NCBI GenBank assembly: GCA_937871775.1
Contig: CALMOP010000051.1
Location: 1-33,551, forward strand
Source: an uncultured Gemmatimonadota bacterium
GTDB taxonomy: Bacteria; Gemmatimonadota; Gemmatimonadetes; Gemmatimonadales; GWC2-71-9
Direction of reading: 5' to 3'
DNA: 33,551 nucleotides
Shown here: in pieces, positions 6,243-15,672 of the stretch
How the letters are laid out: every line of letters starts with the position of its first letter
Position numbering within the stretch: position 1 is the stretch's first letter
Program-made: the position numbers and the translations under genes
The notes under the pieces: generated by a model
The model's input: the letters and a program-made list of their open reading frames with translations, nothing else
What the model was told of the DNA's origin: nothing
Database searches by the model: none

Positions 6243-7080
6243 TCAGGGTGAACCGCCGTCCGGTCGCCAGCCGCGCGAGCAGACTCAGGGTCAGCACCAC
6301 CAGGATCAGCACCAGCGCGGCCGCCCAGGCGAACCGATGCCACTCCTCGTAGGGGCCAGTCGCGTACTGGTACACGGTGAGCGGCAGCGCCGCCATCGGC
6401 TGGGTGATATCCAGTGAGAAGTACTGGCTGCCCAATGCCGTCAACAGGAGAGGCGCAGTTTCTCCCGCGATCCGCGCGATCGAGAGCAGGCTGCCGGTCA
6501 CGATGCCGGGCAGCGCCGTGCGGAGCACTATGGCCAGGCTGGTCCGCCATCTCGGATACCCCAGGGCCAGGGCTGCTTCCCGAAGCGAGTGTGGCACCAG
6601 CCGAATCAGCTCCTCGGTGGTGCGCATGACCATGGGGATCATGAGCATCGCCAGGGCACAGCTGCCGGCCAGACCGGAAAAGTGCCTTACCCGGGCCACG
6701 ATGAGGGTCCAGGCGAATACTCCCACGACGATGGATGGCGTGCCATTCATGACGTCCGCGAGGAACCGGGTCAGCTTCGCCAGCCGGGCTCCCGGGTATT
6801 CAGCGCAATAGATACCGGCTCCGACCCCGACCGGAACGCCCACCAGACTCGCCGTGCCGACGATGAGCAGGGTGCCGACGATCGCGTTGGCCACCCCGCC
6901 GCCGGTCTCTCCGGCAGGGACCGGCACCCGGGTGAAGAAGGCGATCGAGAGGCTGCCCGCTCCCTTGATGACCAGGTTCAGCAGGATGAAGACCAGGGGC
7001 AGGACCGCCACGATCACGGCGAGGATCATGAGGCCCACCATGCCGTTGCTGACCCAGCGCCGCAGGACGCGTCGGTTCAC
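6235..7080 (-). CDS. pstA: Phosphate ABC transporter permease PstA
   Basis: Inner-membrane permease subunit of the phosphate importer. The track ORF extends to 7644 in a frame that lies over pstC. The real start is the GTG at 7080, overlapping the pstC stop as GTGA and giving 281 residues. About six membrane segments are visible. The binding-protein-dependent permease loop that contacts the ATPase appears as [16 protein letters not shown], with the EAA motif in the third quarter. [14 protein letters not shown] near residue 230 is typical of PstA. It ends inside the start of the proximal pstB. Partners are PstC, PstB and PstS. Confidence 0.95.
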
Positions 7081-8048
7081 AGACCCTTGCCTCCGCCGGA
7101 GCCACGGGCGACCCGCCAGATCAGCAGCCGCGCCAGGGCATTGACCAGGACCGTGACCAGGAACAGCAGGAAGGCGACGTAGGCCAGGGCGCTGAAGTGC
7201 AGATCGGTCGCGGCCTCGGAGAACTCGTTGGCGATCACGGCCGCCATGGTGTAACCGGGTGCGAACAGGGAGGCGGAGATGGCGTTGCGGTTCCCGATCA
7301 GCATCGTCACCGCCATGGTCTCGCCCAGCGCCCGACCCAGGCCGAGGATGATGGCGCCGAGGATGCCCGACCGGGCGTAGGGGATGATGGCCGACATCAC
7401 CGCCTCCCACCGGGTCGCGCCCAGGGCGAGCGCGGCCTCGCGCTGACTTCCCGGGACCGCGATCAGGACCTCCCGCGCCACCGACATGATGAATGGCATG
7501 ATCATGATGGCCAGGATGATGCTCGCCGACAGCATCGACGGCCCGTAGATCGGCCCCTGAAAGAAGGGCAGGAATCCCAGCCCCGACCGGAGCACCGGAA
7601 ACACGAACTTCTTGAGGATCGGGATCAGGACGTAGATGCCCCACAGGCCGTAGACCACACTGGGGATCGCGGCGAGCAACTCGATCAGGAACGCGATCGG
7701 CTGGCGCAGGACTCGCGGGGCGAACTCAGTGATGTAGATCGCCACGCCCAGGGAGAGTGGCACCGCGATCAGCAGGGCCAGGAACGAGGACAGGAGCGTC
7801 CCCGCAATGAGTGGGAAGGCACCGAACTCCTCGGCTACCGGGTCCCAGGTGCTCCCGGTGACGAAGCCGAGTCCGTAGCGCGAGATCGCGAGCCTGGCCC
7901 CCGAGTGCAGCTCCAGCAGCAGGAACAGCAACAGGATGGGGATCGCGAGCGCCGCAATGGTCAGGGCGACCCGGAACATCCGGTCTCCCGCCCGGGAACC
8001 CTCCAGACCCCGGGCGGTGCTGGTACCTGGAAGGGATGGTGCGGCCAT
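7077..8048 (-). CDS. pstC: Phosphate ABC transporter permease PstC
   Basis: Inner-membrane permease partner of PstA. From the ATG at 8048 it has 323 residues. About six membrane segments follow a short basic N-terminus. The EAA loop is [17 protein letters not shown], and GLGRALGETMAVTMLIGNRN is the strongly conserved PstC stretch. The track begins at a GTG (8087), but that codon lies inside the phased Pho-like repeats (8081-8109), and a -10-like TACACT ends 7 nt before the ATG at 8048. I therefore prefer the ATG, possibly translated from a leaderless message. It is the first gene of the pstC-A-B-B-phoU-ppx run and is separated from pstS by a hairpin terminator. Confidence 0.94.
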   Translation of the reverse strand: MAAPSLPGTSTARGLEGSRAGDRMFRVALTIAALAIPILLLFLLLELHSGARLAISRYGLGFVTGSTWDPVAEEFGAFPLIAGTLLSSFLALLIAVPLSLGVAIYITEFAPRVLRQPIAFLIELLAAIPSVVYGLWGIYVLIPILKKFVFPVLRSGLGFLPFFQGPIYGPSMLSASIILAIMIMPFIMSVAREVLIAVPGSQREAALALGATRWEAVMSAIIPYARSGILGAIILGLGRALGETMAVTMLIGNRNAISASLFAPGYTMAAVIANEFSEAATDLHFSALAYVAFLLFLVTVLVNALARLLIWRVARGSGGGKGL

Positions 8049-8055
8049 GGCGGGC

Positions 8056-8061
8056 AGTGTA
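8056..8061 (-). promoter_or_regulatory. Candidate -10 box of the pstC operon
   Basis: On the minus strand the hexamer reads TACACT, four of six bases matching TATAAT. It lies 7 nt before the pstC ATG and 19 nt downstream of the phased repeats. No -35 box is evident, as expected for a PhoB-activated promoter. This is a motif reading only. Confidence 0.4.
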
Positions 8062-8080: not shown

Positions 8081-8109
8081 CGGTCACGTTGATGTAACGG
8101 ACCTGTCAC
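8081..8109 (-). promoter_or_regulatory. Candidate Pho box before pstC (three heptamers, 11-bp period)
   Basis: On the plus strand three heptamers are spaced by exactly 4 nt: CGGTCAC, ATGTAAC, CTGTCAC, starting at 8081, 8092 and 8103. PhoB half-sites in E. coli (CTGTCAT) repeat with the same 11-bp period. On the coding strand of pstC they read GTGACAG, GTTACAT, GTGACCG, so orientation relative to the gene is opposite to the E. coli arrangement. The array overlaps the alternative GTG start of pstC, which argues against that start. Confidence 0.6.
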
Positions 8110-8127
8110 GCCGGGGTGGAAATGACA

Positions 8128-8153
8128 GGCGGCGGGGGAAGACCCCCGCCGCC
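8128..8153 (-). terminator. Hairpin terminator after pstS
   Basis: A perfect inverted repeat with an 11-bp GC-only stem (GGCGGCGGGGG / CCCCCGCCGCC) and a 4-nt loop lies 31 nt past the pstS stop and before the pstC promoter region. On the minus strand a short TGTCATTTCC follows rather than a clean U-tract, so it is an imperfect intrinsic terminator. It would separate the porin-pstS transcript from the pstC operon or act as a 3' stabiliser that raises PstS levels. Confidence 0.7.
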
Positions 8154-8184
8154 CGATCCCGACAGCCCAAAGTCGTGTGTCGGG

Positions 8185-9210
8185 CTACTTCAGGCCCTTG
8201 ATACGCTCCTGCTCCAGCCTGATCACCTCGGCTGGCAGCGAGGCATACTGCAGCTGGTTCGCCATCTGCTGTGCCTCGTCGGTCAGCATCCAGGACAGAA
8301 AGTCCTTCAGCGCCTTGGACTTGGCGGCGTCCTTGAGCTTGGGACGCACCAGCAGCCAGGTAAAGGAAGAGATGGGATAGGAATCCTTGCCGGGTGCGTT
8401 GGTGATCGACACCCGGAAGTCGGTGCCCTTGTCGAATTTCGCGCTTGCGGCGGCGGCAGTGACACCGGCCAGCGATGGCACGATGTAGTCCCCTGCAGGG
8501 TTCTTCACCTGGGCATACGGGAGCTTGTTGGCGACCGCATAGATCAATTCGACGTATCCGATCGTTCCTTCAGTCTGCTTGACCTCCTGGGTCACCCCCT
8601 CGTTGCCCTTGCCGCCGAGTCCGACGGGCCAGTTCACCGAGGTGGCCTTGCCGACCTTGTCCTTCCACTCCGGCGAGACCTTGCTGAGGTAATCGGTGAA
8701 GATGTAGGAGGTGCCTGACCCGTCCGACCGGTGCACCACGATCAGGTCCGCGTTGGGAAGCTTCACGCCGGGGTTCAGGGCGGCGAGCCGGGAATCGTTC
8801 CACTTGGTGATGCGACCCAGAAAGATGTCGGCGATCGTCGGACCATCCAGCTTGAGCTGAGTGTCACCCAGCGCGGGGACATTCCAGGTCAGGACCACCG
8901 CACCCATGACGGTTGGCAGGTGCAGCACTTCCCCCTGCACGGTGGTCATCTGGTCGTTCGACATCGGGCCATCGGAAGCACCGAAGTCCACCGTGCCCTC
9001 GGTGTATTGCCGGATGCCGGCGCCGGAGCCGACCGACTGATAGTTGATCTGCACCCCGGTCTTCTGATGATAGGCGTCAAACCACTTGGTGTAGATCGGA
9101 TTCGGGAACGTGGCCCCGGCTCCAGTCAGGGTGGTCTGGGCTGTCGCGGGCGTGGCGCCGAAGAGCAGCGCCAGGGCGCCCAGCGTCAAGGGGGAGGAAA
9201 TGCGTCGCAT
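8185..9210 (-). CDS. pstS: Periplasmic phosphate-binding protein PstS
   Basis: Solute-binding protein that delivers phosphate to PstCA. The track start (9309) lies in the upstream porin gene. The ATG at 9210 has GGAG 9 nt upstream and begins a clean Sec signal peptide (MRRISS, hydrophobic core, ATPATAQ cleavage region) without a lipobox cysteine, so the mature protein is soluble and periplasmic. It has 341 residues. Phosphate-binding signatures are GAGATFPNPIY at the mature N-terminus, SVGSGAGI, DFGASDGPMS and HRSDGSGTSYIFTDYL. It sits 34 nt after the porin gene on the same strand and ends before a strong hairpin, so porin and pstS probably form one phosphate-controlled transcript. Confidence 0.96.
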   Translation of the reverse strand: MRRISSPLTLGALALLFGATPATAQTTLTGAGATFPNPIYTKWFDAYHQKTGVQINYQSVGSGAGIRQYTEGTVDFGASDGPMSNDQMTTVQGEVLHLPTVMGAVVLTWNVPALGDTQLKLDGPTIADIFLGRITKWNDSRLAALNPGVKLPNADLIVVHRSDGSGTSYIFTDYLSKVSPEWKDKVGKATSVNWPVGLGGKGNEGVTQEVKQTEGTIGYVELIYAVANKLPYAQVKNPAGDYIVPSLAGVTAAAASAKFDKGTDFRVSITNAPGKDSYPISSFTWLLVRPKLKDAAKSKALKDFLSWMLTDEAQQMANQLQYASLPAEVIRLEQERIKGLK

Positions 9211-9244
9211 CGATACGGTCTCCAACTTCGAAGGAGTAAGGAAC

Positions 9245-10285
9245 TCAGTAGGTGAACTGGCCCTGGACGTAGGCGGTGCTGCTGGTGGCCTTGAAGCCGT
9301 TGGGCTCATTGCCCCCCTGCCGACTTACGTGGTCCAGGTCGACCAGCAGTCGAAAATTTGGAGTGACCTGATAGGAAGCCCCTCCGATAATCCTGGTCAG
9401 CCGGTCGTTGGTCGCGGCGCTGGCGGTGTTCGGATCCGTGATGTCGACCCGGGCGAGGATGGCGATGGCGGAGTTGGGAACGTTGTAGACCCCGAAGGCG
9501 CTGAGTACCCGACCCTTTGCCACGCTGGTGCTGGCGGCGACGCTGTCCCGGGTCATGGCGTATTCCGCAGCCAGGGTGATCTGCTTCGACTTGTGGGACA
9601 GCATGCCGAGGTAGCGCTGGCGCTTGCCGCCCCCGGTCGGCTTGCCGTATTGGGCGTAACCGGTGAGCCGGAGGCCACCGACCTTTCCGGGGAGATCGGT
9701 GTTCATCAGCTTGTACGAGGCCCGGGCCATGAGGTCCTTGCGCTGGTCGCCGGGAGCGCCGCTGTAGTTCTCGCCGTTGTAGACCCCCACCTGGGCATTG
9801 AACTTCTCGTACCCCCAGTTCCCGTCGACGCCGGCACCGAAGTCCGAGGACGACACGTAGCCGCCCCGCTCCAGGGCCATCTGGCCCTGCATGCGGTAGT
9901 CCCACAGCGCCTCTTCCCAGTCGAGCCACGGGGTGTGGATCGCGCCCAGCTTGTAGGTCAGGTGGCTGTCCTCGGGGGTCCAGGCCAGGTAGGCGTATTT
10001 GATCCGGATGGCGAGATAGCTGGTGTTCGCCGAGCGGCCGGCCAGGTCCAGAGTGATGCGGGTGGTGAGTCCCTTGGGGAACTTGCCGATCGCGTTCACG
10101 TAGGCCCTGGTGACGTCGAAATTGTTCTGATGTCCGTTCAGGACGGTGTCCTTATTCAACTGGTACTGATACTGCACATACCCGACGCCGCCCACCGTGA
10201 CCGAAGGAGTCTGTGCGCCGAGCGCAACGCTCACAGCTGTGAGGAGCCCCAGGAGGGTGGCGAAGGAACGGAACCTGACTCCCAT
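9245..10285 (-). CDS. Outer-membrane porin, probably phosphate-related (OprP/OprO-like)
   Basis: The 346-residue protein starts at the ATG at 10285, with GGGGA 8 nt upstream; the longer track ORF has no signal sequence. A signal peptide (MGVRFRS, hydrophobic core, ending VALGAQ) is followed by alternating hydrophobic/polar strands rich in Tyr and Gly. The last residues, VQGQFTY, end in an aromatic residue as outer-membrane barrels do for BAM recognition. Segments such as VTRAYVNAIGKFPKGLTTRI resemble phosphate-selective porin strands. It is directly upstream of pstS and carries phased Pho-like repeats in its promoter region, so a role in phosphate entry is likely. Ion selectivity is inferred from context, not shown. 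Confidence 0.85.
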   Translation of the reverse strand: MGVRFRSFATLLGLLTAVSVALGAQTPSVTVGGVGYVQYQYQLNKDTVLNGHQNNFDVTRAYVNAIGKFPKGLTTRITLDLAGRSANTSYLAIRIKYAYLAWTPEDSHLTYKLGAIHTPWLDWEEALWDYRMQGQMALERGGYVSSSDFGAGVDGNWGYEKFNAQVGVYNGENYSGAPGDQRKDLMARASYKLMNTDLPGKVGGLRLTGYAQYGKPTGGGKRQRYLGMLSHKSKQITLAAEYAMTRDSVAASTSVAKGRVLSAFGVYNVPNSAIAILARVDITDPNTASAATNDRLTRIIGGASYQVTPNFRLLVDLDHVSRQGGNEPNGFKATSSTAYVQGQFTY

Positions 10286-10324
10286 GACATATTCCCCGAA
10301 ATTGAGTGGACCTGCTCTGACGCT

Positions 10325-10342
10325 GCTGAGGGATGTCTCAGC
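10325..10342 (-). other. Small stem-loop in the porin 5' untranslated region
   Basis: GCTGAG and CTCAGC form a 6-bp stem with a 6-nt loop, about 40 nt before the porin ATG and downstream of the phased repeats. It is too short for a terminator without a U-tract. It could stabilise the 5' end of the message, or be chance. Confidence 0.25.
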
Positions 10343-10364
10343 GCGCCGTAACAAAGCCCCGGCG

Positions 10365-10404
10365 CTGTAACGGGATGACCCGCGCCAGGTAACGACGGGG
10401 TAAA
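10365..10404 (-). promoter_or_regulatory. Candidate Pho box before the porin-pstS transcript (11-bp period)
   Basis: On the plus strand heptamers start at 10365, 10376, 10387 and 10398: CTGTAAC, TGACCCG, AGGTAAC, GGGTAAA, each separated by 4 nt. Three of the four share the GTAA core; the second is divergent. On the porin coding strand these read GTTAC or TTTAC repeats. This is the same 11-bp geometry as the array before pstC. The span lies 80-119 nt upstream of the porin ATG. Confidence 0.55.
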
Positions 10405-10570
10405 GGCACATTGTCCCGCCGTTACCGCGGGCTTGGCCCGACCCGACTGTAGGGATTCTCAAACAGTGCTTCTTCCGACATCGGCAGTGCTGTCGCCAGT
10501 GGCCGGGGGGGCGGCGGCGGTGGCAATTCCGCGCCGGTCGCGGCCACCGGCCCCGCCGGCGGGAGCCCCT

Positions 10571-11407
10571 TCATCCGCATACGGCCGCCGCGGTAAACGC
10601 TTCCTCGAGTACGCGCCCTCGGTAGGACGGTGGTGTCGGAGCTCCGAAGTGATGCAACACCGTGGGCGGCACATCCAGGAGGTGAGCAGGCAGGTCGCCA
10701 CCCCGTCCCGGGACCACGCGACCTCCCAGCAGCAGCAGCGGGATGGCATCATTGAGTGGATGTGGATGGTCATGATCCCGCTCGAGCACTCCGCCTCCGC
10801 CGTGATCCGCCGTGATGACGACCAGATGTTCCGGTGAGCTCACCAGCGACATCAGGCCCGCCAGGGACCGATCAATGGCGCCGGCGGCCTGAAGGTACGC
10901 CGGCGACATCCAGCCCCAGGCATGCCCCGCCAAGTCGGCATCGTTCAGATACGCCACCACGAAAGCCGGACCCTGCGCCTTGTCCAGAGTGTGCAGGGCG
11001 GTGTCCACCAGCCGGGTTGGCTCGCTGGCGCTGGCCTTGAGGCGGGCGACTCCCCCGAGTCGAAGCAGCGCACCGGCGAGCCAGCGTACCGAACCCGGCA
11101 ATTCTGGAGTAACCACAGTTGTCTCAACGCCATGGCGCCGCAACTCCCCCGGGAGGGGCTGCAGGCCGCGGAACCGCGGCAGGGTCCATCGTGACTGGTT
11201 GTCCATGCCATGGACACCTGGGGACACCCCGGTTCCGAGCGAGGTGAGGGCGGCCACCGTCACACTCGGTCGCACGGTGACCGCGGAACCGGCGACCCAC
11301 CCGAGACCCATCATCCGATGCAGCACCGGTGTGGTGTCGTCGCGGATGGCATCGGGCCGAAGGCCGTCGATGACCACCAGGATGGCGGTGCGCTGTCTGT
11401 ATTCCAC
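10571..11407 (-). CDS. Alkaline-phosphatase-superfamily phosphodiesterase (type I phosphodiesterase/nucleotide pyrophosphatase-like)
   Basis: Predicted metal-dependent phosphoester hydrolase of 278 residues from the GTG at 11407, with GGGGG 7 nt upstream; the track extends further into the glycosyltransferase on the other strand. Metal-binding motifs are in order: AILVVIDGLRPDAI at the N-terminus, RPSVTVAALTSLGTG carrying the likely Ser/Thr nucleophile, VHGMDN, NDADLAGHAWGW and ITADHGGGG. No signal peptide is visible, so it probably acts in the cytosol. The substrate is unknown; a phospholipid head group, nucleotide or phosphonate ester are all possible. It is divergent from the GT4 gene across a region holding two Pho-like arrays, which suggests phosphate control. 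Confidence 0.85.
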   Translation of the reverse strand: MEYRQRTAILVVIDGLRPDAIRDDTTPVLHRMMGLGWVAGSAVTVRPSVTVAALTSLGTGVSPGVHGMDNQSRWTLPRFRGLQPLPGELRRHGVETTVVTPELPGSVRWLAGALLRLGGVARLKASASEPTRLVDTALHTLDKAQGPAFVVAYLNDADLAGHAWGWMSPAYLQAAGAIDRSLAGLMSLVSSPEHLVVITADHGGGGVLERDHDHPHPLNDAIPLLLLGGRVVPGRGGDLPAHLLDVPPTVLHHFGAPTPPSYRGRVLEEAFTAAAVCG

Positions 11408-11440
11408 TCCTGATCCCCCGTCTGAGATTGTGCATGGACG

Positions 11441-11480
11441 CTGTCGGGGTCGTGTCACTTTCCGATGGTCCACGTGTCTC
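11441..11480 (-). promoter_or_regulatory. Candidate Pho box, array 1 of the divergent phosphodiesterase/GT4 region
   Basis: Heptamers on the plus strand start at 11441, 11452, 11463 and 11474: CTGTCGG, GTGTCAC, CGATGGT, GTGTCTC, with 4-nt spacers. Three of four contain TGTC; the third is degenerate. The array lies 34-73 nt upstream of the phosphodiesterase GTG, with a CACAAT (-10-like) at 11432-11427 on its coding strand. Confidence 0.5.
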
Positions 11481-11501
11481 AAGCCCGCGACGACCGGACC
11501 G

Positions 11502-11530
11502 CTGTCGTGCCTCCGTGACCAGTCCGTCAC
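11502..11530 (+). promoter_or_regulatory. Candidate Pho box, array 2 of the divergent phosphodiesterase/GT4 region
   Basis: Three heptamers start at 11502, 11513 and 11524: CTGTCGT, CCGTGAC, CCGTCAC, with exact 4-nt spacers. The array ends 33 nt before the GT4 ATG and reads in the E. coli orientation for that gene. It is out of phase with array 1 (28 nt from its last heptamer), so the two look like separate sites for the two divergent genes. Confidence 0.5.
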
Positions 11531-11563
11531 CCATTCGCGATGATGCGCAGGCATGGTATTCCC

Positions 11564-12733
11564 ATGCGAATCCTTTTCTGTACCGACACATTCCTCCCCG
11601 AGGTCAACGGGGTTACCACGGTCCTGGCGCAGATGCGGGAGGGCCTGGCTCGGCGTGGGCACCAGGTGCGGATCGCGGCCCCTCGATACCCGACCCCTGC
11701 CACGGACGAATCGGGTGTGTGGCGCCTGGGTGCCGTGGCATGCCCGGCCTATCCGCAGGTGCGGCTGTCATGGCCGTGGGGTCGTGGACTTGGAACCCAC
11801 TTCGACCAGTTCAGTCCGGAACTGGTACACGTCGTGACGGAAGGACCGCTCGGAGTCTTCGGCCGTCACTACGCCCAGCGTCGCGGCCTGCCGCTGGTTT
11901 CCTCCTTTCACACCGACTTTCCTCGTTACGCGGTGCGGTACCTGGGTCCGCTCGCGGCCGCCCCGACCTGGGCCTGGCTGCGTCGGTTCCATCAGGCCGC
12001 GGTCCTGACCCAGACTCCAAGCGATGTAACCCGCAATGAATTGCTGGTACACGGCATTCCCGGCGCGGTTGTCTGGGGCCGCAGTGTGGACGCGACCTGG
12101 TTCCGGCCGGATCGGCGCTCCGAGGGACGGCGGGTTGGGCTGGGTGCCGCGGGCCGGGCGCTGGTCCTGCACGTCGGCCGGCTGGCGGTGGAGAAGGACG
12201 TGGATACACTGGTGGCCTCGTTCACGGAGGCTCATCGGCGCCTTGGGGAGCAGGCGGTGTTCTGCGTCGCCGGCGACGGACCCCGCGGGCCCCAGGTGCG
12301 GGCGGCGCTGCCATTCGCGCGCCATGTCGGCTTTCTCGATCGCACGACGCTCGCCGATCTGTATGCGGATGCCGATGTCTTCGTGTTCCCCTCGCCTACG
12401 GAGACCTGCGGCCTGGTCGCGCTGGAGGCGCTCGCCTCGGGGATTCCGGTGATCGGGGCCAATGCAGGGGGAATACCCGAGAGCCTTCGCGAAGGCCTGA
12501 CTGGATATCTGATCGGCCCCGGGGACGCCGAGGCTTTTGCGGCGCGCATCGAAGAGCTGGTGCGGGATGGAGACCAGCGCCGGGCGATGGGGGAGGCGGC
12601 CCGGGGGTTTGCGGTCGGGCGTGATTGGGCTCGCGAGCTGGATGCGCTGGACGAGACCTACCGCAGGGTGAGGTGGACCACCACGGCGGCGGCCGCGCCC
12701 AGCGCCTGTCCCACCACGACGTCCGTGACGTAG
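11564..12733 (+). CDS. GT4-type glycosyltransferase (GT-B fold; MgtA/SqdX-like)
   Basis: Retaining glycosyltransferase of 389 residues, likely peripheral to the inner membrane and using a nucleotide sugar. The N-terminal domain starts MRILFCTDTFLPEVNGV and contains SFHTDFPRYA near residue 114. The C-terminal donor domain has VGRLAVEKDVDTL, VAGDGP and the EX7E motif in SPTETCGLVALEAL (Glu280, Glu288). WGRSVDATWFRP resembles the WGRGVD stretch of bacterial alpha-mannosyl- and lipid glycosyltransferases. ATG codons occur at 11540, 11543 and 11564; conserved sequence begins at 11564, and the earlier ones crowd the Pho-like array. The last ~20 residues (VRWTTTAAAAP...) are antisense to the PAP2 gene tail, with a 76-nt convergent overlap. 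The acceptor may be diacylglycerol or a phospholipid; this is inferred. Confidence 0.85.
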   Translation: MRILFCTDTFLPEVNGVTTVLAQMREGLARRGHQVRIAAPRYPTPATDESGVWRLGAVACPAYPQVRLSWPWGRGLGTHFDQFSPELVHVVTEGPLGVFGRHYAQRRGLPLVSSFHTDFPRYAVRYLGPLAAAPTWAWLRRFHQAAVLTQTPSDVTRNELLVHGIPGAVVWGRSVDATWFRPDRRSEGRRVGLGAAGRALVLHVGRLAVEKDVDTLVASFTEAHRRLGEQAVFCVAGDGPRGPQVRAALPFARHVGFLDRTTLADLYADADVFVFPSPTETCGLVALEALASGIPVIGANAGGIPESLREGLTGYLIGPGDAEAFAARIEELVRDGDQRRAMGEAARGFAVGRDWARELDALDETYRRVRWTTTAAAAPSACPTTTSVT

Positions 12734-13246: not shown

Positions 13247-14968
13247 TCACGATTCCGTCTCGGATCGATCCGGGAGCCACACCCCGATCTCGGTACCCTG
13301 TCCAACGGTGCTGGCGGCCGTAATCCGACCCCCATGGGCCTCCACCAGATGGCGCACGATCGACAGCCCCAGGCCGGTCCCGCCCTCGGCACGAGACCGG
13401 TGGGGATCGGCACGATAGAAACGCTCGAAGATCCTGGGCAGGTGCTGGGAGGGGATCCCGCTGCCGGTGTCGCGGACGGCCAGGCTGACGCCTCCGGGCT
13501 CCCGGGACGCACGCACCGAGATCCGCCCGCCGGGCGGGGTGTAGCGCAGGGCATTGTCGTAGAGATTGCTGAGGACCTGACGCACCGCTTCGGGGTCGGC
13601 CCACACGCTCTCGGCGCCGGCTGTGATCTCGGTACTGAATCCGACACCCTGACGCTCGGCGCGATCGGTGAAGAAGCTCCAGCTCTCGCCGAGGAGGCTC
13701 CTGGTGTCGACCTCCTGTGGCTTCGGCTCCCAGCTTCCCGATTCGATCCGGGAGAGGTCGAGCAGGTCGTCGACCAGCCGCTGCATCCGCCGGGCGTTCC
13801 CGGCGATGACTTCCAGGAACCGCTGGGTGGTCTCGGCGTCGGGGGAATCGTTGACCAGGGTTTCCGCATATCCGGAGATCGAAGTGAGCGGGGTCTTGAG
13901 TTCGTGCGACACGTTGGCCACAAAGTCTCGGCGCACCGTCTCCAGGCGACGCAGGGCGGTCACGTCGTGCATGACCAGGAGCGCGCCCCCTTCCGGCAGC
14001 GGTCGTCCGGAGAGCAGGACGTTGCGGCCTTCGAGTTCCAGCTCCCGATCCGGAACGCTCTCGCCGCCCAGCGAGAGATCCACCACCTCCCGGGCCACCT
14101 TGGCACGGAATAACTGGGGCAGCGCGGGAAGCGGTTCCCCGGTTTCGTACCCGAGCAGCCGGCGGACCGCGGAGTTGGCGGTGACAATGCGACCGCGACT
14201 GTCCGCCGCCACCACTCCGTCCACCATCGCCTCCACCAGGGCGGCACTCTCGGCCCGCTCCTGGCGGAGCAGGCTGAATCGCTCGTCCAGTTGCTGGTGC
14301 ATGACCCGGAGGGCCTGCACCAGGTCATCGATGTCACTGATGCCAGACCGGGGAAATCGGGGGGAGACTCCCGCCGCGATCAAACGCGCCGAAGCGGTGA
14401 TCTCGGTCAGGGGGCGGGCGATCGAGCGCCCGGCCACGAACGCGAAGGCCGAGCCCAGCAGCAGGGCCAGCAGGGCGGCCGCGATGATGGCCCGCTGGGC
14501 CCGCCGGAAGATCTGCTGCGCCCCGTCCAGCGACGTCGCCACCCGGACCACGCCGGGTCCTCCCCGCACGGCGACGTACAGCATGGGCCGGTGCACCGTC
14601 CTGCTCTCCCGCTGGTCGGTCCCTACGCCGCTCAGGAGTGCTGCCTGGACCTCCGGGCGGCCGGCATGGTTCTCGATGCCTGACAGACTCTCCACCGGTG
14701 CGTCGCTCTCGGCCACCACCATACCGTCCGGGCGGATGAGGGTGATCCGGAGTCCGGTGCCCCGGGCGATCTCACGGACCGCCACCGGCCAGGCGGCGGA
14801 GTCCGCCGGCAGGGTGCGGGCAAGCAGCCGGGCGTCCCGCTCGAGGGCGCGCCGAATGTCGGCCTCGAGGTCCCGCCGCAGCGTGACATCGGCCGCCAGT
14901 GCCAGGGTGATGATCGCCACGACGCTGACCCCCAGGGTGCCAAGCACCAGCCGCCTGGCGAAGGTCAT
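13247..14968 (-). CDS. phoR: PhoR-type sensor histidine kinase
   Basis: Membrane histidine kinase of 573 residues, partner of the adjacent PhoB-like regulator. Order: TM1 (residues 8-26), a ~130-residue periplasmic sensor region, TM2 (160-179), HAMP (about 180-232), PAS (about 240-335), HisKA with the phospho-acceptor in NVSHELKTPL (His355), and HATPase with the N-box SNLYDNALRYTPPGG, G1 DTGSGIP and G2 GGTGLGL. E. coli PhoR lacks the large periplasmic domain; this one resembles the longer PhoR/PnpS type of Gram-positive and other phyla. Its ATG overlaps the phoB stop (ATGA). PhoR is favoured by that pairing, the PAS-HisKA layout and the nearby pst/phoU genes. Other stress kinases of the same family cannot be excluded. 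Confidence 0.9.
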   Translation of the reverse strand: MTFARRLVLGTLGVSVVAIITLALAADVTLRRDLEADIRRALERDARLLARTLPADSAAWPVAVREIARGTGLRITLIRPDGMVVAESDAPVESLSGIENHAGRPEVQAALLSGVGTDQRESRTVHRPMLYVAVRGGPGVVRVATSLDGAQQIFRRAQRAIIAAALLALLLGSAFAFVAGRSIARPLTEITASARLIAAGVSPRFPRSGISDIDDLVQALRVMHQQLDERFSLLRQERAESAALVEAMVDGVVAADSRGRIVTANSAVRRLLGYETGEPLPALPQLFRAKVAREVVDLSLGGESVPDRELELEGRNVLLSGRPLPEGGALLVMHDVTALRRLETVRRDFVANVSHELKTPLTSISGYAETLVNDSPDAETTQRFLEVIAGNARRMQRLVDDLLDLSRIESGSWEPKPQEVDTRSLLGESWSFFTDRAERQGVGFSTEITAGAESVWADPEAVRQVLSNLYDNALRYTPPGGRISVRASREPGGVSLAVRDTGSGIPSQHLPRIFERFYRADPHRSRAEGGTGLGLSIVRHLVEAHGGRITAASTVGQGTEIGVWLPDRSETES

Positions 14969-15672
14969 GGGCGACGAGCCCCCTTCTCGGCCGACTTGAA
15001 TCGGTACCCGAAGCCCCGTACCGTCTCGATCAGGTCGCCGGCGGCACCCAGCTTGGAGCGGAGCCGCTGGACGTGCATGTCGACCGTCCGGGTCTGGATG
15101 TCCGGCTGCGCTTCCCAGACCGTTTCCAGCAGCTGGGGTCGGGTCTGCACCCGGCCCCGCCGCTCGAGCAGCGTGACCAGCAGCTTGTATTCGGTGGCGG
15201 TGAGCTCAATTTCCGTACCCCCGACCGCGACCCGGTGTGCCGCGCGGTCGATGACGATACTCCCCGCAGACAGCGTGGACCCGCCGGCGACGGCCGGAGC
15301 GGCGAGGCGTCGGAGCAGGGCCTTCACTCGAAGGGCCAGCTCGGCGGGGGAAAACGGCTTGGTGAGATAGTCGTCGGCACCGAGCGAGAGTCCCCGGATG
15401 CGATCGGGCTCTTCGCGCCGGGCGGTCAGCAGGATCACTCCCACGTCCCGAGTCTCCTCGAGCCGCCGCAACTCGGCCAGGACGTCGTAGCCGGAGACCC
15501 CGGGCAACATCACGTCCAGTATGATGATGTCGGGTCGCTCCTCGCGAGCGGCCTTGAGCGCGTCGGGGCCGTTGGCGGCGGTGGAGACCCGATGGCCCGC
15601 CTTGGCCAGGTGATAGGCGACCAGCGCCGTGATGTCCGGCTCGTCGTCGACGACCAGGATGCGGTGAGTCAC
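14965..15672 (-). CDS. phoB: PhoB-type response regulator (OmpR/PhoB winged helix)
   Basis: Two-domain DNA-binding response regulator of 235 residues. The receiver domain has the acidic pocket VVDDEPD, the phosphorylated aspartate in ILDVMLPG (Asp53), the switch threonine in LLTAR and the lysine in YLTKPFSP. The C-terminal winged helix has ELTATEYKLLVTLLERRG and the recognition region TRTVDMHVQRLRSKLG, ending in the family signature ETVRGFGYRF. The start is a GTG at 15672 overlapping the arsR stop (GTGA). It presumably binds the 11-bp-phased repeats found before pstC, the porin and the phosphodiesterase/GT4 pair. Confidence 0.92.
   Translation of the reverse strand: MTHRILVVDDEPDITALVAYHLAKAGHRVSTAANGPDALKAAREERPDIIILDVMLPGVSGYDVLAELRRLEETRDVGVILLTARREEPDRIRGLSLGADDYLTKPFSPAELALRVKALLRRLAAPAVAGGSTLSAGSIVIDRAAHRVAVGGTEIELTATEYKLLVTLLERRGRVQTRPQLLETVWEAQPDIQTRTVDMHVQRLRSKLGAAGDLIETVRGFGYRFKSAEKGARRP

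Follow-up and report, generated by a model that had tools for sequence, protein, structure and literature searches.

The question raised by this locus is whether repeated short words in the intergenic regions of a phosphate-uptake cluster are operators of the phosphate regulon and, if so, which regulator reads them and which genes they control. The stretch analysed here (the window, 33,551 nt) is part of a 3.06-Mb metagenome genome of the Gemmatimonadota, a phylum common in soil of which few members have been cultured. The pst genes and PhoR-PhoB have been described in this phylum, with no operator (PMC10581226), and we found no description of a Gemmatimonadota Pho box in the open-access papers searched. 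On the minus strand of the window lie ppx-phoU-pstB-pstA-pstC-pstS-porin; past the porin gene, a phosphodiesterase gene (minus) and a GT4-family glycosyltransferase gene (plus) stand back to back, followed by phoR and phoB (minus). The gene pstC (7077..8048, -) encodes a phosphate ABC permease (Pfam PF00528, TIGR02138), pstS (ORF 8185..9309, -; TIGR00975, E 1e-119) a phosphate-binding protein whose true start is probably further inside the ORF, and the next gene (9245..10285, -; PF07396) a phosphate-selective porin of the Porin_O_P family. A preliminary description, made from the letters of the window, had proposed four phased arrays built on a GTNAC core as PhoB-type boxes.

With 106 copies of the short word GTNAC in the window, a chance arrangement of such words in high-GC DNA had to be weighed. 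The window contains three GTNAC pairs at 11-bp distance, of which the pstC array has two and the GT4 array one, and three more at 22 bp, in each case against about 0.3 expected, and a pattern search for the exact GTNAC-N6-GTNAC-N6-GTNAC finds a single occurrence in the 3.06-Mb genome, the pstC array. To avoid circularity, a matrix was then trained with the window left out, by expectation-maximisation and with no period imposed, on 56 regions of relatives lying upstream of pstS/porin or between pstS and pstC. The resulting motif, YGTKAC-N4-YYGTKACA, has an 11-bp period, and all 39 of its sites of at least 14 bits in the training regions are on the gene-sense strand. In 58 regions of this kind, 41 GT[GT]AC pairs are spaced by 11 bp (against 0.1 expected), 20 by 22 bp and 13 by 33 bp. 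The same de novo method applied to proteobacterial pstS regions recovers CTGTCAT.

Among approximately 67,000 window positions, the four best matches to this matrix are 8093 on the minus strand (25.8 bits), 11514 on the plus strand (18.8), and 10388 (16.2) and 8082 (13.3) on the minus strand. All four fall inside the arrays first described, in line with the earlier remark that nothing comparable exists elsewhere in the window, and three sites reach at least 16 bits where 0.07 would be expected in Markov sequence. A matrix trained elsewhere thus ranks three boxes first, and these boxes are conserved across genera; for the three arrays chance is refuted, its probability being next to nil. The fourth array (11441..11480, -), claimed upstream of the phosphodiesterase gene, does not rise above background (3.1 bits), and here chance remains the likely explanation.

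The repeat unit, [C][CT]GT[GT]AC[A], recurs at 11-bp intervals along the gene-sense strand. The pstC box (8083..8111, -), the best match in the window, has three units at this period, GCGTGAC (8111-8105), CCGTTAC (8100-8094) and ACGTGAC (8089-8083), with a degenerate fourth position at 8078-8072 (-). The box of the porin-pstS pair (10367..10406, -; 16.2 bits) has four unit positions, CCTTTAC (10406-10400), TCGTTAC (10395-10389), a degenerate CGCGGGT (10384-10378) and CCGTTAC (10373-10367). The GT4 box (11502..11530, +; 18.8 bits) consists of a degenerate CTGTCGT (11502-11508) followed by CCGTGAC (11513-11519) and CCGTCAC (11524-11530), and is conserved at a fixed distance before GT4 orthologues. 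The varying orientation first reported for these arrays was an artefact of the core GTNAC, which is palindromic and gives no orientation, whereas the flanks of the full unit (5' Y, 3' A) place all three boxes on the gene-sense strand. We also considered reading the unit on the reverse strand, as an E. coli-like TGT[CA]AC. How PhoB would be seated is not settled by a near-palindromic unit alone, and we prefer the sense reading because the flanks are asymmetric and the predicted -10 element lies 10 bp away.

That spacing is a feature of the promoters as a group. In aligned relatives, units stand at 0, 11, weakly 22, and 33, followed by 10 bp and then a -10 element with T at its last position in 91%. 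A last unit about 10 bp upstream of the -10 element is the E. coli rule for Pho boxes (PMC1906773), and the last unit position lies at about that distance here. In the window, the predicted -10 element of pstC (TACACT, 8056..8061, -) fits the conserved column of the relatives and lies 7 nt before the ATG at 8048; that of the porin gene (CTTTGT, 10351..10356, -) is 10 bp past the last unit, and that of GT4 (CATGGT, 11552..11557, +) lies 6 nt before the ATG. For pstC, GT4 and the polyphosphate kinase gene ppk, the predicted -10 element ends only 6-7 nt before the start codon (window 8048-8061 and 11552-11564; L171, 2240-2262). This proximity suggests leaderless messages for pstC, ppk and GT4, and points to leaderless mRNAs in the Pho regulon of this phylum.

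Enrichment in orthologous promoters, a check that the preliminary description had proposed, came out in its favour, the motif being enriched before pst/pho genes of relatives. A strict form of the pattern has 54 matches in 61 genomes, compared to 14 for the same pattern read backwards as a control. Its genome-wide preference is for phosphate genes. In the own genome there are only two matches, one before pstC and the other (contig 308, L171 2201-2218) 43 bp before the polyphosphate kinase gene ppk1. A strict box also precedes ppk in three relatives (L174, L184, L189), phoB in one relative, and in one a gene taken, without a family search, to be PhoU-like. Allowing one mismatch in the own genome gave 7 matches against 8 in the control, so no further targets could be called there.

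Across 200 Gemmatimonadota genomes, by the author's tally, matches of the strict pattern outnumber those of the control by 47 to 8 within the own family and by 49 to 6 beyond the order; in other phyla (35 genomes) there is no enrichment (17 versus 18). De novo searches of small acidobacterial and cyanobacterial sets returned nothing interpretable, which makes the absence of the motif there weak evidence. Single high-scoring similar sites do occur near pstS in Geobacter and in one acidobacterium, so the variant box may not be exclusive to Gemmatimonadota. The earlier idea of a lineage-specific box holds as enrichment in the phylum and less surely as strict exclusivity.

Which regulator would read these boxes? 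The window encodes, as first described, a PhoB response regulator (14965..15672, -), and next to it a phoR/pnpS-type sensor kinase (13247..14968, -; domain and family profile matches). TIGR02154 is the best model for this PhoB, which reaches 250.9 bits against a cut-off of 296.2. E. coli PhoB contacts bases through T194, V197, R201 and R219 (PMC3264566, PMC3973317). In the window PhoB and its relatives T194, R201 and R219 are kept and V197 is replaced by methionine, which occupies position 197 in every one of the 26 distinct Gemmatimonadota PhoBs read; PhoBs from elsewhere have Val, Thr or Ala, with one Met, in contig L058. This contig, filed as Candidatus Kuenenia, has 66% GC, carries a phoB 70% identical to that of the window, and has a matching site close to its pst genes; it is probably a misbinned Gemmatimonadota contig. 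The operator change and the residue-197 change go together, and V197M, the only changed base-contact residue, located in the recognition helix, may account for the altered unit letters.

The boxes could be real and yet be operators of another OmpR-family response regulator controlling the same genes, since targets of the OmpR/PhoB family share 11-bp direct repeats and a second 11-bp motif, of CTGTCAT type and located before a tonB-like gene, indicates at least two active regulators of this kind. This is improbable given that strict sites stand before pst, porin, ppk and GT4 genes and, in one relative, before phoB itself, that phoB-phoR is part of the same cluster in many relatives, and that three of the four E. 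coli contact residues are kept. The three supported arrays (8083-8111, 10367-10406, 11502-11530) are, in our view, very probably variant Pho boxes that PhoB reads. In two relatives (L223, L225) the GT4-phosphodiesterase pair is followed, downstream, by a second gene resembling phoB.

The motif learned from relatives agrees with the proposal of 11-bp-period, PhoB-type boxes with a core unlike CTGTCAT. The E. coli system and this one share 11-bp direct repeats, pst targets and a PhoB with T194, R201 and R219. The E. coli pstS promoter reads CTGTCAT, CTGTCAT, CTTACAT, CTGTCAC, 10 bp, TATTTT, and like the porin promoter of the window has four unit positions, a degenerate third one and 10 bp to the -10 element. 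Unlike in E. coli, however, the unit here is CYGTKACA versus CTGTCATA, with changes at positions 2, 5 and 7, the linkers are not AT-rich, and PhoB has Met197 instead of Val. Because its unit is CYGTKACA and not the E. coli consensus CTGTCAT, the Gemmatimonadota box is best termed a Pho box of variant sequence. The cyanobacterial SphR box (CTTAACCT, 8+3 bp; PMC1906773) is likewise a variant of the unit at the level of a phylum and keeps the 11-bp period; it differs in having TTAAC where GT[GT]AC is found here and in using at least three repeats.

The E. coli-type pattern TGTCAY-N5-TGTCAY was rejected as the Pho box of the phylum, its conserved matches being located before a tonB-like gene. This gene, for a TonB-like energy transducer, is preceded in at least six genomes by the second 11-bp tandem motif, CTGTCAT-N4-TTGTCAT, usually with TAATC ahead (own genome, G000 contig 137 near 4665, L243; also L244, L245, L246, L248, L249 and L251). 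Counting all matches, this pattern occurs 56 times in 61 genomes against 7 for its control. It is closer to the E. coli Pho box than the pst boxes are.

The preliminary description had further placed both the phosphodiesterase and the GT4 gene under phosphate control. For GT4 (11564..12733, +; PF00534/PF13439; GT-B fold model, pLDDT 89.7), 14 of 20 orthologues (≥40% identity) are preceded by a sense-strand box scoring 12 bits or more, compared to 1 of 25 paralogues (Fisher p = 2.9e-6), mostly 43 bp before the start or one repeat less (32-34 bp). The loci with a box span many genera and several are far from pst; in the nearest relative, G001, the box is weak (9.5 bits). By this conservation, the predicted Pho regulon includes GT4 as a conserved member.

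The phosphodiesterase gene (10571..11413, -) lacks a supported box of its own in this genome. Moderate sense sites (11.1 to 14.9 bits) before its counterparts in four relatives (G052, G003, G114, G120) speak for a fourth Pho box at 11441-11480, but the 3.1 bits of the window array are far under chance maxima and the nearest relative has 1.1 bits there, so that such a box is unlikely. The phosphodiesterase gene adjoins GT4 in 15 genomes, 8 of them divergent as in the window and 7 co-directional with the phosphodiesterase downstream. In several co-directional pairs the gene ends overlap; being on the same strand and downstream with overlapping ends, the phosphodiesterase is probably co-transcribed from the GT4 box in these 7 relatives. 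GT4 and the phosphodiesterase are likely to form a phosphate-controlled module.

The phosphodiesterase is a cytoplasmic-looking member of the alkaline-phosphatase superfamily (PF01663), with conserved metal and nucleophile residues, the superfamily residues being intact, and no evident signal peptide in its sequence. Its best structural match (Foldseek) is nucleotide pyrophosphatase/phosphodiesterase (NPP). Those of GT4 are BshA, MshA, GlgM and PimA, a range of folds that does not fix the acceptor. Both sets of matches would agree with a role, under Pho control, in exopolysaccharide, a phosphate-containing envelope polymer or nucleotide sugars rather than membrane lipids, and we give such a role slightly better than even chances. 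Against it, the NCBIfam model that fits GT4 best, though below cut-off, is that of a lipid glycosyltransferase, GlcNAc-phosphatidylglycerol synthase, and the pairing copies the logic of PlcP-Agt (PMC4796936).

In the PlcP-Agt lipid-remodelling operon of marine bacteria and Pseudomonas aeruginosa, neighbouring genes for a phosphoesterase and a glycosyltransferase stand under the control of a Pho box (PMC4796936, PMC8528852). The likeness here consists in the adjacency of the two genes (15 genomes, 7 co-directional) and a Pho box before GT4. The differences are that the phosphodiesterase belongs to PF01663 and not to the calcineurin-like PlcP family, that it has no direct box in this genome, and that both activities are putative. 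As the phosphodiesterase family differs, the pair can be said to work like PlcP-Agt without being a member of it; the own genome encodes three calcineurin-like proteins, one of them LpxH-like. Perhaps the module serves lipid remodelling. In its fullest form, the proposal would have the alkaline-phosphatase-superfamily phosphodiesterase replace PlcP and GT4 make the surrogate glycolipid in Gemmatimonadota, with the pair driven, like pst and ppk, by the variant Pho box and a Met197 PhoB; we regard this as a tentative possibility.

Under the reading that we favour, phosphorylated PhoB would bind the boxes at low phosphate as tandem dimers on the 11-bp direct repeats and recruit RNA polymerase to the -10 hexamer 10 bp past the fourth unit position. 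Presumed activation would switch on pstC and the genes behind it, the porin-pstS pair and GT4, and the last of these, together with the phosphodiesterase, might act in membrane-lipid remodelling.

For the phylum, the matrix is usable for listing Pho regulons in its many metagenome genomes, and the change of an operator together with one base-contact residue offers a clean case of protein-DNA specificity. A hitherto unexplained glycosyltransferase-phosphodiesterase pair becomes a testable candidate for lipid remodelling, in which, through GT4, phosphorus-free lipids may be swapped into the membrane when phosphate is scarce.
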